Made by a program: the position numbers and the translations under genes. Below the pieces are notes generated by a model. The model was not told the origin of the DNA, made no database searches, and saw nothing but the letters and a program-made list of their open reading frames with translations. 64,000 bases of DNA from the NCBI GenBank assembly GCA_026419775.2, contig JAOPGA020000657.1, forward strand, positions 62,001 through 126,000, given 5' to 3'. This stretch comes from Acrasis kona. Lineage: Eukaryota > Heterolobosea > Eutetramitea > Acrasida > Acrasidae. Below are positions 9,014-36,046 of the stretch, one piece after another. Positions within the stretch are counted from its first letter, which is position 1. The number at the start of each line of letters is the position of its first letter.

Positions 9014-9354
9014 TCAAAATAGATTTGTTCCGAAAGTCCGGACCAAATGAAGTATGTGGCCCAAAAAAACAAGAACATGTAAATGTTGTAGTTTCATCTT
9101 TTTCATCTTTGCTACACAAAGGATAATACTAAAAACAACAAATAAATATGCATTGAATTGAATCTTTATGATAATTTAATGTCACCTTGATTACAATAAA
9201 AGACTGGAGTTGGAGCCAGATAGGATGACGAAGTCATTGTCATTCGATTTTGTACAACGTCTTTAAGCGAAAGTAGAACGATGTGCTAAAGAGAGAATTA
9301 AATCTACACCACCAAAGAAAAATAGAAATGCCCAAAAGGAAGTATTTTTATTGT
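9014..9354. other. Intergenic region, nothing recognised
   Basis: 341 bp of AT-rich sequence between two minus-strand genes (the 3' end of eRF1 and the start of the F-box gene). There is no ORF above 20 codons with an ATG and no repeat. It presumably carries the F-box gene promoter and the eRF1 3' UTR. Confidence 0.5.
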
Positions 9355-10675
9355 TTAGATGAAGTCTGACAAGTCGTCTTCTTCGCTGTCTGATTGATAA
9401 AAGCATTCGTCCTCAAATGACATCTTGTATCTCAATATTGCACCCATTCCTCCAAATCCCATTAAAAGTTGTCTCCCCTCAGAAGTTTTGTCGCTCACAA
9501 TGCTCAACTCAACATTAGTATAAACTTTTTTCTGATATTGTTCAACAATCCATTCTAACACTTGTGTTTGTTCAACAAGATTATAACCCCCTTGTAACCT
9601 TTTATTAAATTCTGATCTTGACATGAAGTGAGTGGCGAGTCCACCATCACAATCTGTAAAAGTCGCTCTCACAGCATCGATGTTTTCGTTAACAACAAGA
9701 GTCTTGACCACTCCTGCTTCTAGGGCCTGCACAACATGATTAACACCAAAAACAGCAAGATTTTCATTATTACAAACATGGTCCATAAATTCACAAACAA
9801 TCTTTTTTTCTTGTAAATGTTTCATATTTTGTAGAATGTGCGCCACTTGCTCTATAGCCTCTCTCAAACCAATTTCTCCGCCATAACACACAGTGATGAC
9901 CTTCAAAATAATCTTTTTGATGCGCTCGTCCAAATAATTTCCATTAAAAAACTCATCTTTGAGATTGGCAGCGCCTGCAATAAAGATGCCCTTTACGGCA
10001 GGGAGGTTGGTTCCTTCGTCAATAAAGTTCTTGGTTGCCTTCTCTCCGATCTGACTCAGATAATGTTTGATGGCAATTTGTCTATTTCTTGCGAAACGCG
10101 ATTGGCTTTGACCACCCTTGTTGTGCTTCTTTGGTAATTCCTCCGAAAAGGAGTGTAATACCTTTGGTGTGTCGCCTTGTATGGTTGCGTATAGAGTTCC
10201 AGTGCCGGTTAGGATGATGAATCCATAAGAATCACCACGGGTGTGTTCTTCTAACTGATCAAGTAATGGCTCTACGTGAAATTTGCTGTCGCAATGGTAT
10301 AGGTCGTGTTTGATTGGATATATGGGCTCAACAACAACAATCGCCTTCTTCATCTTTTTTCTTCCTTGGTCGTTGTCGTCGTTCACTAGTCCACAGAAGA
10401 CTGCCAACCCATTTGGAGGGGTAGTCTTGAATAGCTTGAGCCTACTAATGACTGTGGACATGGCGGTTTGGACAGATTGACGGTTAAATGCACGACTTAA
10501 TGCGGCCAGTGGAGCTCAATTTGTCGTTCATAATGGATACTACCTGTGCCACTTGAGTGTTAGGTTGGATCAATAAAGAAATCACAGAAGTTCCATCTCC
10601 ATTCAAAGATTTCAGCTGCATCATTTGATTCTTAAACTTCCACACTTCAATATCGTTCTGTTGCTCTCCTGACAT
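9355..10675 (-). CDS. Eukaryotic release factor eRF1, +1 frameshift needed at an in-frame UAA
   Basis: Two frames make a complete 439-residue eRF1: 10675-10487 (63 codons from the ATG) and 10485-9355. Domain 1 has GTS at 28-30, RIKS at 58-61 (normally NIKS) and the Y-x-C-x-x-x-F motif (YHCDSKF). The catalytic GGQ loop reads NKGGQSQSRFARNR, and an acidic C-terminus follows. eRF1 recognises all three stops and triggers peptide release with eRF3. After codon 63 the reading frame meets TAA (10486-10484). Skipping one base continues into AAC CGT.. (NRQSV), which aligns without gap to the conserved eRF1 sequence. A 49-nt intron (GTGCAT..CATTAG) could also fuse the frames, but it would delete about 15 conserved residues and has an atypical donor. 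An assembly indel is possible. Confidence 0.88.
10483..10492 (-). promoter_or_regulatory. Candidate programmed +1 frameshift site (TGC ATT TAA C)
   Basis: The mRNA reads UGC AUU UAA C. The zero-frame stop UAA is followed by C, a weak termination context in eukaryotes. The P-site codon AUU can re-pair as UUU after a +1 slip (positions 2 and 3 retained), and the next codon AAC begins the correct downstream frame. This is the arrangement of prfB (CUU UGA C) and resembles antizyme (UCC UGA). Low eRF1 would favour slipping and so raise eRF1. The mechanism is inference; the frame change is seen directly. Confidence 0.5.
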
Positions 10676-11362
10676 TGTTATTTTATACTCGCTCAAATAA
10701 ACTCAACCAATTTATAGTCAGGTATTTGTTCGGTATGTGAACATCAATTCTGAGATGCACATCCTCATAAAGCTTACAAAGATTTACAATGTTACACTAA
10801 AAAACAAAATTCATATTCACTAATCATGTATTATTAAAGAATTATATCCTGCTCATCGTGCTCACCCTTCTATACTTACATTCGTTATTGCAATCTAGGT
10901 GAATTTTAATTGTCGGGTGAGAAATTGGTGCCAGGTGAAGATTTTAATTGTCAGGTAACAAACCTCCATTTGTTTATTGTTTGTGCGCGAGTTGTTTCTT
11001 CAGATGTCACTTAAGTATCTTGAGTATAGGCAGCATGTACTATTTTAGTTCATTGTGACTTGACGATGTTGAAGCACACGCCCTGCGTCATCATGCTTGA
11101 CTTCATTAACATTTCATATTGTTGATTTTAGGCTTCGTTTAAATGAACTGCTCTGCCTTGCTGTACTTGGATGACTGTTTCATTTATTTGAACTGTTAAT
11201 CAACCTGCAGGTCTCGAGACTATACTCATGTTCAATGTTGCACAAAGATGTGGCTGCATTTNATATCAATGCTGCATTATTAACTATAATTAGTACACTT
11301 TAATCAGTTGCAAAAGATGCAAACAAATTGATTTTTCAAAGGTATTTTATGTACATTGATAT
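10676..11362. other. Intergenic region with one ambiguous base
   Basis: About 690 bp between the eRF1 start and a small minus-strand gene. No supported ORF. Position 11262 is an N, showing an unresolved base in the assembly. TTTTAATTGTC followed by GGGTGA or AGGTAA recurs at about 10907-10960 as a short direct repeat. Confidence 0.5.
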
Positions 11363-13425: not shown

Positions 13426-15874
13426 TTAATGGCTGTATTGTCTGGTCATGTACGCATTAATGACCTGAAGACCATAACACAACTCCATTTGCTTTCTCGC
13501 CTCCACGCACAACATGTTCAAGTGTATCTTCTCCTTGTTCCTCAAACTAAATCCCATATCGATCCATTGCTCTCGCCTGGTTCGTTCGGGATAACAAGTA
13601 ACCGTTTTGATATATTTTTTCAAATTAATGTTTAGTAACAAATTAGTACTTTCGTAATTAAAATCATCATGCATCATTCCGTACAATCTATGAACATAAA
13701 ACCATATTGCGCTTCTAAAGGCGCTAGTATCAATATTTGTGACTTTATTAAATTTCTTTTCGGTTAAATTATAAATCAAATCAAACTCCATGTCCAGCAG
13801 ATCGGCACTTCCATTGTAAAAACGATTCAACATTGTGAATGCGTGGTCCTTCCAGTTATATTCCTGTGCGCTCAATAAATTGTAGTCCTTGCTCCTCACA
13901 TCAAAATCAGTATAACTCAAATGTGCGTCGGCTACATATCTCTCCAGACCTGGTTGTTGTTGTTGCCTCCTTACGTTTTGTTGTGATTGTTTTTGTTGTT
14001 GAGATTTTAATTGTTGAAACAATCCTTCTGGTCTTGTTTGTTGTGTGGAGTCGGAGGAAGTGTTGACCTGTTGTGAGAGGTTGTTCCAATAAGTCATGCT
14101 GGCGTAGGGAGGCGGTACGAAACAATCGTAATTGTTTAGATTGGCGAAAACACCGGATGGTGGAATAAAAGTTTGCGCGGATGGACATGTGTCGTGTGAT
14201 TTGATTCTCTTGTGTGAAAATTGTGACGACAAGCTGGATTCTCTGGTTTGTTCAATGATTGGATCCAAACACGTGTTTTCTTCTTCGTAGTCTCCAGAGA
14301 TCTTGTGTAGGGTCTCCACTACTTTCAAACTCTCTCCTTCTAATGCGACACTTTGTGTACGTTTTTTTTAGTTTGTCAATGTCTTGCATGAGCAGATCAA
14401 TGTTTGTTGGTTCGTTGTCGGGTAGGATTCCATTTCCATAAACGAAACCTGACATGGAATGAAAGTGGCACATGATGACCACTGCATGGACTAGTTCTGC
14501 AATGCTCCATGCGTCTGCTCCTTTGCAAAGTACTTCCACGTGTTGTTCGGTTAGTGTCCAAGGTTGGTGTGCTAGTACTTGATTGTACTTTAATAGGTTT
14601 TGTATCTTGTGGGGAGCGTATTTGATTCCTTTGAGCCAGGTCGGATCTCCTCCGTTTGATAAAAATTCTGCTTCTTGACGCCTCACAATGTAGTGACAAT
14701 TGTGTCTGCTGGCGGCCTATAAAATAATTAATTGTTGACCCGTGATGATGACTTACCATGATGCCAATGTAGTTGCGCCACGTAATAGGCAATGGTCCAA
14801 TGTTACGCATAATAAAGTGGTAAGAGTTGAAAAAGACTTCTGCAAATTGAGGATAAGCCATCAGTACTCTGCTGTGATTCGCAACACTAAAGAAATGAGA
14901 ATACGTATCAGCGTTCGTGACTTACATTCCATTTTCCAAAAAGAATTCACAGAACAGCGTCTTTGCACCAGGCTGCTTGTTGTTTATTGTTTCCAGGCTG
15001 GTTGGTTTGAAGAACCATGAAGGAGAGTTTAGGTAACCTAGTGTTGGTTTCTGTATGGATATGCCATTCTTTATCAATAGTGCAGCAACTTCTTGGAACC
15101 GTGTGGAAATGTCTTCAAAGGGACAGTCGTAAGCAAAACGAGCAATGATGCTACGGTATCTATTAAAGAAACGATTTGGCTGAAGTAGGTCCTCTTGTGA
15201 TTCCTGCTTTGCATTCTTAATGTACTCTGTCAAGTGTGTTTTGATGACATCTATGACGTTCGTGACTCCTTGTTTCCGCTTTTCAACTGTAAAGTAATGT
15301 TAGTCGAATTGAAAATGTAAAATGTACCATTAGGATGTAAACATTGTCTGAATAAATGTGACTCTGATAGTGTCACGCCTTCATCTATTTCTTGTGAATA
15401 CAATTGGGGTGTGGTGACGTTGCTCAACTCTGAATCACTGTCCTCGCTTGATAAATCGTCCTCGTGCTGTTGCCTGGGTGTGTTGCGGGTAGCGCTCGAG
15501 TTGCTTTTTCTTTGTTTGTTTTTATATTTGTTCAGTTGAGATTCTTCGTCTTGGTCGTTGTAGACGTTATATTCTGCGTCGTCACGGCCAGTGAAAATAT
15601 TATCCTTCATCCAATTAGGGCTTGTCCCTAGCATGCTGGACATTGGTGCTGTGCTGGGTAATGTTGTGTCGGTGGGATCTTCGAAACGTGCCCATTTGGG
15701 ACTATGAGGGCTGGGCGACCCATCATCACGGTTTTGTTGTGATTTATGGTCCTCATATTGATTGATCAGGCTATTCTTTAACCAGTCGGGGGTGACGGAC
15801 AATGCATCATCAGAACTAATATTTAGATTTTTGTTAATGGCCTGGCCGTCCGTATTGATGTTGCCAGGCTTCAT
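13426..15874 (-). CDS. Sestrin with long disordered N-terminus; one-base frame break
   Basis: Exons 15874-15328, 15286-14926, 14886-14757 and 14716-13426, with introns of 41, 39 and 40 nt. About the first 200 residues are low complexity. The sestrin (PA26) fold then begins: IGPLPITWRNYIGIMAAS, the conserved RHNCHYIV with its peroxidase-type cysteine, WSIAELVHAVVIMCHFHS and FVYGNGI. The C-terminal block is KKYIKTVTCYPERT..IHLNMLCVEARKQMEL, which corresponds to the leucine-pocket region of metazoan sestrins. Sestrins restrain TORC1 through GATOR2 and limit oxidative stress. Within exon 4 the frame changes by one base at a T8 run (14362-14369, A8 in mRNA). No GT..AG intron repairs it, so I suspect an assembly indel. 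Confidence 0.85.
14362..14369 (-). other. Homopolymer frame break in the sestrin gene
   Basis: An eight-base T run (A8 in the mRNA: CTA AAA AAA ACG). Upstream sestrin homology is in one frame, downstream homology in the next. Deleting one A restores continuity (KLKKRTQSVALEGESLKVV). The break lies in a variable linker between the two conserved sestrin lobes. Confidence 0.75.
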
Positions 15875-34452: not shown

Positions 34453-36046
34453 TTATTTAGTCTTCTTTGTTTCTTCCACAACGACAGGCTTTCTTGGTGG
34501 TTGAGGAAGAGCATTGGCTATAACATAGTACAACAACAATCCAATATGGCCACAGAAGTACATTTCTTTATACCAGTGCATGGACTCCTTCAAGTCTAGA
34601 ATGTGGAAGCTAGCAGCAAAGTAGGAGAATGCCAAATGAGTCAACACAAAAGCACCTGCATGATAGATGGCCTTCACGACGAATGGCTCTCTGGACAAAT
34701 CTTCTGGATGATCTTTTGAGTTTTGGAAAATGATTGGTCTTAACCTCTTGTGAAGGGTCCTGTGAACGGAGGAAGCAATAGAAAAACAAATCCACATCAA
34801 ATAATAACCAGGATATAAACCATGCCAGAAGGCACTAATTAAGAAAGTGAAAAAAAGTTTTTGTGATCTGACTCTTGAATAAACGTAATTTCTTAGCCAC
34901 TTGGACACACCAATGTTCCATCCTGCAATTAACTCACGAATAGTCGTTCCAAACTCAACATGACGGAAGTGGGCTTGCTCAATGTCAGTCCAATTGTTCT
35001 TTTCTGGATTGTAACCAAAACCGGCTGCGATGCATGCTCCCTCTCCCAAGAACCATGCCACATAATACTTGGTGCGACAGAATGTGGTGGCGCCGACAGT
35101 GTAGAACACCCTAAGAGGATTAATCCGTCACATCAAGTCACACAACTTACTTTTCAAGGAACGTTAATTGACTTAGTGTTGGTTCCACTAGATTAGCTCT
35201 TGTGAAGTAGGGTGCGACCAGAACAAAGATCGCAATGTTCAATAGGGACAAACTTACTTTCTTAAGCACGAGTGGGACTTCTACTGGAAGATCTTTACTG
35301 TTAGCCCATCTTTTATATGCAGTGAATTCATGGATGGGTCCTGATATCACAGAGGGGAAGAAGAACAAGTGACCAAAGTACTCAAGAGGGTTTGGTACTC
35401 TATCAATGGAATTCCTCTTAAATGTTGCAAAAGCCTTTAATGCTTCTGGGTTATCTGTTTTGGGAGCGGATCTTCCACCGTCGCTATAATTAAAAGCAAC
35501 GCTAATGGTCTTAAGAGTACACAACATTTGAAGTGTAGAGAAGTCGAGGGTCCATCCACCGTAATCCACGGTCATGCGGTACAAATGACTACAAGTGTGA
35601 TGTGATGTCGTGCACATAAGTACTTACCATAAAATTAAGTAGGTGAATGCGAAAACAAAAGCGAACGTTTGTTGAAAGTGACGTGGCAGGACAAGCATAC
35701 CAAAATAGACAACAAGTGGTTGAATGATTGAATGAATGGCTAGCCACTTGAATGCAACAAATGAAAATAGCACACCCCAGAATAAAGAAAAAACGTGCCT
35801 GGTGTTTCCTGTTGGTAAATATCTGGTGATTATTCCTAGTGGGAACGACATAACCAAAAACACGATGTACATTATACTTCCGCTGGTCAATCCCATAGTG
35901 TTCGCGAGTGCATCCAAGCCGTCATAAAAAGGTTGGAAAATTGGAGCTATTGGTTCTCCGATCAAAGATGTGTATGGCAATGTGTGGTTATAAATCTCTC
36001 CACTGAGGTACAGAACTCTCTCCTCCCATGTAGAGCTTGAGTTCAT
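34453..36046 (-). CDS. MBOAT-family lysophospholipid acyltransferase
   Basis: Exons 36046-35628, 35588-35151 and 35110-34453 (introns of 39 and 40 nt) give 504 residues with about ten hydrophobic helices. Family signatures: HLYRMTVDYGGWTLDFST, the WNIGVSKWLRNYVY block with the conserved Asn, and the catalytic His in SAFWHGLYPGYY. This set fits the ALE1/MBOAT1/2/5 lysophospholipid acyltransferases that remodel ER phospholipids with acyl-CoA. The C-terminus ends Lys-rich (EETKKTK), a possible ER-retrieval dilysine-type tail. The acyl and head-group specificity cannot be read from sequence. Confidence 0.88.

Follow-up and report, generated by a model that had tools for sequence, protein, structure and literature searches.

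A divergent second eRF1 gene of Acrasis kona with a probable +1 frameshift at UAA-C

The heterolobosean amoeba Acrasis kona carries a second, divergent gene of the eRF1 family, here named eRF1B, whose reading frame is interrupted by a single base at an in-frame UAA-C. It is probable that a conserved +1 frameshift at this UAA-C gates a back-up release factor according to the cell's termination capacity. The one-base break has been kept under selection in two copies, which makes such a shift the best reading of the site. The break itself is real, is shared by both copies and probably by relatives, and most likely marks a site of programmed +1 frameshifting, for which control by termination capacity would be the likeliest purpose. 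Release-factor frameshift switches are already known from bacteria and from giant viruses (PMC3521657; PMC5009743). The available part of a frameshifting review (PMC5009743) names one giant-virus case and no cellular eRF1 case, and no report of a frameshift in a cellular eukaryotic eRF1-family gene was found in the literature searched, which lay mostly outside subscription journals.

Layout of the eRF1B locus

The window analyzed here is a stretch of 64,000 nucleotides that forms part of contig C320 in the 37.4-Mb assembly of A. kona. On its minus strand, the sequence TGC ATT TAA C (10492-10483) closes an ORF of 63 codons (ORF1), which opens with an ATG at 10675-10673, has AAG TCG TGC ATT as its last four codons, and ends at a TAA (10486-10484) followed by C (10483). 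The +1 frame (AAC CGT CAA TCT GTC ...) stays free of stops between 10515 and 9358 and reaches a TAA at 9357-9355, and when one four-letter step is read at the break the result is a 439-aa product of the eRF1 family. The best match to a solved chain spans residues 4-421 of the joined protein without a gap at the junction, where STGRIKSCI, the last residues before the break, and NRQSV, the first after it, align with TASNIKSRVNRQSV of the best solved eRF1 chain. The break falls directly behind the stop-codon-reading motif, and no homopolymer of four bases or longer occurs between 10440 and 10520. The locus consists of two ORFs, the second in +1, with homology throughout the joined product, which is the arrangement expected of a programmed frameshift. 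These results bear out much of a preliminary description of the site: the minus-strand reading reproduces its 63 codons, its TGC ATT TAA C, and its continuation in AAC CGT CAA once one base is dropped, the translation and the gapless alignment agree with its total of 439 residues with none missing or extra at the junction, and the C that it had reported after the UAA is seen in both copies of the gene. The coordinates of the features are collected in Table 1.

Table 1. Features of the eRF1B locus in the window
Feature	Position	Strand	Supporting observation
ORF1, 63 codons, N-terminal part of an eRF1-like N domain, ending in RIKSCI	10487..10675	-	Open reading; 5 synonymous/0 non-synonymous vs the C100 copy
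Proposed shift site ATT TAA C: P-site AUU, in-frame stop UAA, then C, +1 continuation with AAC	10483..10489	-	Identical in the C100 copy
ORF2 (+1), AAC (N64) to the final TAA: remaining N domain, M domain, C domain	9355..10485	-	dN/dS 0.19; Pfam PF03463 above cut-off
RIKS (residues 58-61), where the NIKS stop-codon-reading motif is expected, near the end of ORF1	10493..10504	-	
YHCDSKF, fitting YxCxxxF	10279..10299	-	
GGQ, catalytic motif for peptide release	10108..10116	-	
Internal ATG (M72), corresponding to the start of the public 367-aa protein of the C100 copy	10459..10461	-	
Block shared with G000:C100:40683-42170 at 94% identity: gene plus ~121 bp upstream and 41 bp downstream	9314..10796	-	

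Identity of the gene

The PF03463 profile recognizes four places in the A. kona genome, on contigs C937, C504, C320, and C100. The C937 locus was taken by eye for Pelota, C504 holds the intact canonical eRF1 of A. kona with SNIKSRVNRLSV, and C320 and C100 hold the two copies of the broken gene, both of which exceed the PF03463 cut-off. A whole-genome protein search returned one further match only, at E 0.34. The eRF1B protein is 38% identical to the canonical A. kona eRF1 and carries the marks of the eRF1 family, namely Pfam eRF1_1 and the eRF1 fold, together with GGQ and YxCxxxF, the latter two being present in 10/10 family sequences. The NIKS motif, on the other hand, is replaced by RIKS in A. 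kona eRF1B, while the letters NIK are found in 222/226 of the non-family matches listed, and in a rooted tree the gene does not group with canonical eRF1s. With RIKS in place of NIKS, it was filed as an eRF1-like paralogue rather than as a canonical eRF1.

The broken gene is a second, divergent member of the eRF1 family and not the main eRF1 of A. kona. The earlier statement that the break lies in the gene "that terminates translation" must accordingly be given up, as the canonical gene on C504 is intact and it is the divergent paralogue that is broken. Since an intact canonical eRF1 exists elsewhere in the genome, eRF1B is best regarded as a back-up or specialized paralogue.

Structural modeling is consistent with this family assignment. 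An AlphaFold2 model of joined eRF1B, calculated with 55 sequences, has a mean pLDDT of 87.7 and places the junction within a helix formed by residues 62-79, and its N domain superposes on the human N domain 2llx with 1.6 Å over 135 columns. The best structural matches of the model are full-length eRF1s, in which the domains are rotated relative to each other, so that rmsd values are mostly 5-12 Å. The joined protein is thus predicted to adopt the eRF1 fold. ORF2 alone, by the same model, would start inside the helix and would be devoid of half of the N domain. The structure search also retrieves giant-virus eRF1s, the best of which is 28% identical; one of them is named an N-fragment and another an N-terminal-domain protein.

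Second copy and selection

The second copy, on contig C100 (ATG at G000:C100:40812), is 94-95% identical to the window copy over 1.49 kb, and the flanks of the two are unrelated. The tight boundaries of the duplicated block led to the origin of one copy by retro-copying being considered, and no poly(A) trace was found. The ATTTAAC break is identical in both copies, with open frames on either side, and neither copy has any frame-breaking lesion beyond ATTTAAC. Because the same bases recur in the second copy, the break is not explained by a single miscalled base. Two substitutions, both silent in ORF1, separate the copies in the 13 bases leading up to the TAA; they fall in codons 59 and 62.

Comparison of the two copies by the Nei-Gojobori method yielded 5 synonymous and 0 non-synonymous differences over the 63 codons of ORF1 (P 4e-4), and approximately 33 synonymous and 24 non-synonymous differences over 375 codons of ORF2 (dN/dS 0.19; P 5e-9), with dS between the copies at about 0.15. 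When ORF1 is read in its two wrong frames, the corresponding synonymous/non-synonymous counts are 1/4 and 0/2. Both halves of eRF1B are under purifying selection as protein, and the site is maintained along with them, as judged from the two A. kona copies.

Relatives and trees

Homologues were drawn from the best 120 of 393 matches and the best 120 of 600 matches, which together gave 235 different proteins. The start points among these 235 listed homologues fall at residue 10 or earlier in 209 cases, at residues 11-60 in 18, at residues 70-72 in 8, and later in none. Of the eight that start at residues 70-72, directly after the break, one is the public model for the C100 copy and seven are apparently environmental proteins; all eight are assigned to the eRF1B family. 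Eight relatives are 36-62% identical to eRF1B. The short contigs of five environmental relatives retain 235-666 nt beside the ORF, leaving room for an ORF1.

A gene model from Willaertia magna (P0126) has an ORF1-like start (...NGTSVITLFISPKTAL), after which SPKTAL is joined straight to IFNRQSVLTAL; the model skips the segment just before the break and has L, not M, at position 72. It may be read as containing a spurious intron laid over the same break, in which case its FN would fit TTT AAC. No Naegleria-named proteins were present among the matches listed (best 120 of 393 and best 120 of 600), and a search for small proteins resembling ORF1 found none. Outside A. kona, the case for conservation comes from predicted protein starts and one odd gene model, which suggest that the relatives may carry the same break in their DNA.

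A rooted tree was built from the ORF2 region alone, with nine family rows, 33 other eukaryotic eRF1s including the canonical one of A. kona, and six archaeal aRF1s as the outgroup, the latter obtained from a genome-contig scan (best 80 of 164 loci, archaeal by title except one titled "bacterium"). It omits 18 of the 50 other rows of a first tree, P0014 and further long branches among them, as well as the second A. kona copy. In this tree, all nine family rows come together as a single clade (90/55), with a core of eight at 98/92, outside the 33 other eukaryotic eRF1s, with which the canonical A. kona eRF1 is placed; the fork that joins P0223 to the family has just the 90/55. In the first tree (61 rows, midpoint root, without an outgroup), the family is not one group, as P0014 falls inside it and P0223 beside it. 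P0014 is a fast, long-branch row, and its protein runs unbroken through NIKS. Given the long branches, the depth of the eRF1B clade in the tree is unsure.

The proposed switch

To make full-length eRF1B, ribosomes would have to shift by +1 at AUU UAA C, a site directly behind the loop that reads stop codons. Under efficient termination they would halt at the UAA, and the product would be an inactive peptide of 63 aa. With low activity of eRF1/eRF3, the ribosome would linger at UAA-C, the P-site tRNA would slip by one base, and the full eRF1B, including its GGQ, would be made. The efficiency of such a shift at AUU UAA C would depend on eRF1, and the eRF1B protein is presumed to be active; the site would then sense termination capacity and turn on a back-up factor for release (or rescue). 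The main eRF1 presumably reads this stop, so that cross-regulation, in which less termination leads to more eRF1B, would be the simplest loop. Strict autoregulation is not needed, since the canonical eRF1 is intact, and would arise only if the RIKS-bearing eRF1B itself also reads UAA.

A slip from AUU to UUU would keep two of three base pairs, and this re-pairing should be poorer than that of the CUU used by RF2 and the mimiviruses. In the window copy, no stable RNA structure was detected at the site (z -0.73). Among 132 ORFs of at least 200 codons in 314 kb sampled, the stops are TAA in 91, TGA in 23, and TAG in 18, and TAAC ends 8 of the 132, two of these after an xTT codon. The sequence xTT TAA C is therefore also used as an ordinary stop, although the context is uncommon, since two long ORFs end in this way. 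UAA-C has been described as a weak, shift-prone stop, and in yeast UAA-C and UAG-C have been counted among the most efficient inducers of frameshifting (PMC3521657).

Comparison with known systems

The closest precedent for eRF1B is provided by the giant-virus eRF1 genes, Mimivirus R726 and Megavirus mg280 (Jeudy et al. 2012, PMC3521657), with more viruses described subsequently (PMC6582330). As is proposed for eRF1B, the viral genes have a +1 shift at xUU UAR C in their 5' part that is conserved between relatives, and control by the level of release factor has been proposed for them as well (PMC3521657). Unlike eRF1B, they possess an upstream UGA-C readthrough stop and use CUU as the shift codon (PMC3521657); ORF1 of eRF1B is open from its ATG to the TAA, with no upstream UGA-C stop of the Mimiviridae type. 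Moreover, the Mimivirus shift has been demonstrated in E. coli by mass spectrometry (PMC3521657), whereas that of eRF1B is proposed from sequence. The suggestion that the site is a eukaryotic counterpart of the prfB switch is partly supported, in that the break in an eRF1-family gene is real; the giant-virus eRF1 is an earlier published case (PMC3521657), which the preliminary description had not named.

Bacterial RF2 (prfB), with its CUU UGA C, resembles eRF1B in having a short ORF1, a stop followed by C, a +1 continuation, and a release factor as the gene product (PMC5009743). It differs in belonging to an unrelated protein family, in that its UGA is read by RF2 itself, in its Shine-Dalgarno-like stimulator, and in its CUU (PMC5009743). 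In contrast to RF2, eRF1B is a second eRF1 beside an intact one. Both A. kona copies have the stop followed by C (UAA C), and both have AUU where an RF2-type site has CUU.

Ornithine decarboxylase antizyme shifts at UCC UGA, stimulated by an RNA structure. It has, as is proposed for eRF1B, a eukaryotic cellular +1 shift at a stop and differs as a polyamine sensor and in the gene concerned; antizyme frameshifting is mentioned in PMC5009743. In Euplotes, +1 shifts occur at UAA after an A/T-rich codon, for example AAA UAA, but at thousands of sites that are described as being without regulatory function and in a genetic code in which UGA is reassigned (PMC10235951; PMC5009743). Finally, Acanthamoeba castellanii also has a second amoeba eRF1, although this paralogue is described as free of internal stop codons (PMC3521657).

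Additional observations

The preliminary description had also mentioned other one-base breaks in the window, and one was indeed seen in a sestrin (PA26) gene (13429-14921, minus strand), whose frame switches near 14362 at eight consecutive T (A on the coding strand). Here the assembly probably has the length of the homopolymer wrong, while the other frame switch of the gene, at 14756, resembles a 40-nt GTAAGT...TAG intron. An MBOAT acyltransferase gene (34456-35623, minus strand) is also split by an apparent GTAAGT...TAG intron of 40 nt, a length usual in this genome. Elsewhere, an HSP70 gene (G000:C708:1100-3000) has a one-base frame change at a CCC inside KATAGDTHLG, at approximately base 700 of the locus, which is likely an assembly error or the mark of a damaged copy. 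Two HSP70-like matches (G000:C793:2488-3621 and G000:C480:142619-143752) end at profile position 382 within open frames of 436 aa, and both are apparently without the substrate-binding part. Another query on viral contigs (IMG/VR) returned three aRF1-like loci on contigs resembling prokaryotic viruses, not giant-virus eRF1; the main stretches of these loci show ~22-28% identity to the queries.

Alternative explanations

The preliminary description had itself raised the possibility of a miscalled base at ATTT. An error of base calling or assembly, with one extra T, would find some encouragement in the hybrid 454 and Illumina origin of the assembly (PMC11589745) and in its one-base breaks in other genes, i.e., in sestrin at a run of eight and in the C708 HSP70 at CCC. 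A lone sequencing slip is nevertheless rejected, as the C100 copy has the same ATTTAAC in spite of the two differences just before its TAA; the site lacks any homopolymer of four or more bases, the predicted proteins of relatives begin at the same residue after the break, and an error is very unlikely. That both copies are decaying pseudogenes sharing one break inherited from before the duplication could be argued from the non-canonical RIKS and the existence of a canonical eRF1, but neither relaxed selection nor several lesions were found; the purifying selection on both ORFs at a dS of about 0.15, on which this explanation was rejected, the intact frames beyond the break, the GGQ and YxCxxxF of all ten family sequences, and the 36-62% identity of eight relatives make it very improbable. 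Production of ORF2 alone, as a shortened factor begun at M72 or from another promoter, with ORF1 as a leader or uORF, would account for the public protein that begins at M72 and for the ATG in both copies. It was rejected as unlikely, since ORF1 is eRF1 sequence under amino-acid-level selection right up to the break, the residues from the break to M72 (NRQSV.TA) are common to Willaertia, which has L at 72, and the shortened protein would begin in the helix described above. Mending of the frame in RNA, by a small intron or by editing, is compatible with the range of A. kona introns, 9-95 bp (PMC11589745), and GT...AG stretches of 52 and 55 nt starting from 10496 span the site and would both produce the right frame shift. 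Their removal would, however, delete NR.SV...S, a stretch that eRF1s and the relatives conserve, and the protein alignment is gapless at the junction; the small intron was rejected for the loss of these conserved residues, and RNA mending in general has very little likelihood.

The two remaining alternatives concern the meaning of the shift. If A. kona tolerated +1 shifting at stops throughout its genome, the site could be without a regulatory role, and the A/T-rich codon before its UAA invites comparison with the AAA TAA of Euplotes (PMC10235951). A one-base break is also present in an HSP70 gene; there, a shift at the TGA that follows the CCC join would insert RR into KATAGD, which we take to be a conserved HSP70 stretch. 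Furthermore, among 15 split-match joins worked out by hand, a small sample, 13 are intron-sized (26-53 nt), one is the single base at CCC, and one is a larger loss, and long ORFs in this genome end at all three stops in the numbers given above, all of which renders general tolerance quite improbable. Acquisition of the gene from a giant virus, with the viral recoding site kept, would be compatible with a regulated +1 frameshift as its origin. In its favor are the CUU UAR shifts of Mimiviridae eRF1s (PMC3521657; PMC6582330), the retrieval of giant-virus eRF1s by the structure search, and the branching of the family outside the other sampled eukaryotic eRF1s, in a tree without giant-virus sequences. 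Against it stand the low identity of the best viral match, the lack of a UGA-C readthrough stop in ORF1, and the region of the C-terminal mini-domain, which, as read from alignments, is largely present in eRF1B; viral eRF1s are said to lack this mini-domain (PMC6582330). Scans of viral contigs with eRF1B and two further queries found no relative, and the DNA pattern NIK..CTTTARC gave 98 stretches there, none with an eRF1 (tblastn, E 0.01); the mimivirus eRF1 DNA was likewise not found in these contigs with the protein and pattern queries used. A viral origin is possible but on balance doubtful.

Significance

On the frameshift reading, the 367-aa public model of the C100 copy would seem to be truncated. 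If true, the proposed switch would provide a cellular example of a release factor governed by eukaryotic termination capacity, and an RF2-like switch of eukaryotes would become testable in culturable amoebae. It would also bear on the direction in which the eRF1 recoding of giant viruses has traveled, i.e., whether it was taken from amoeba hosts or given to them. A broader proposition, for and against which the scales are about even, is that heteroloboseans have kept an ancient eRF1B gated by a +1 shift at UAA-C behind the stop-reading loop, as a cellular termination-capacity switch akin to those of RF2 and the giant-virus eRF1s. Such a switch would supply a spare or specialized factor when the main eRF1 fails, and it may have been invented independently, for a third time, or be the cellular counterpart of the giant-virus gene.
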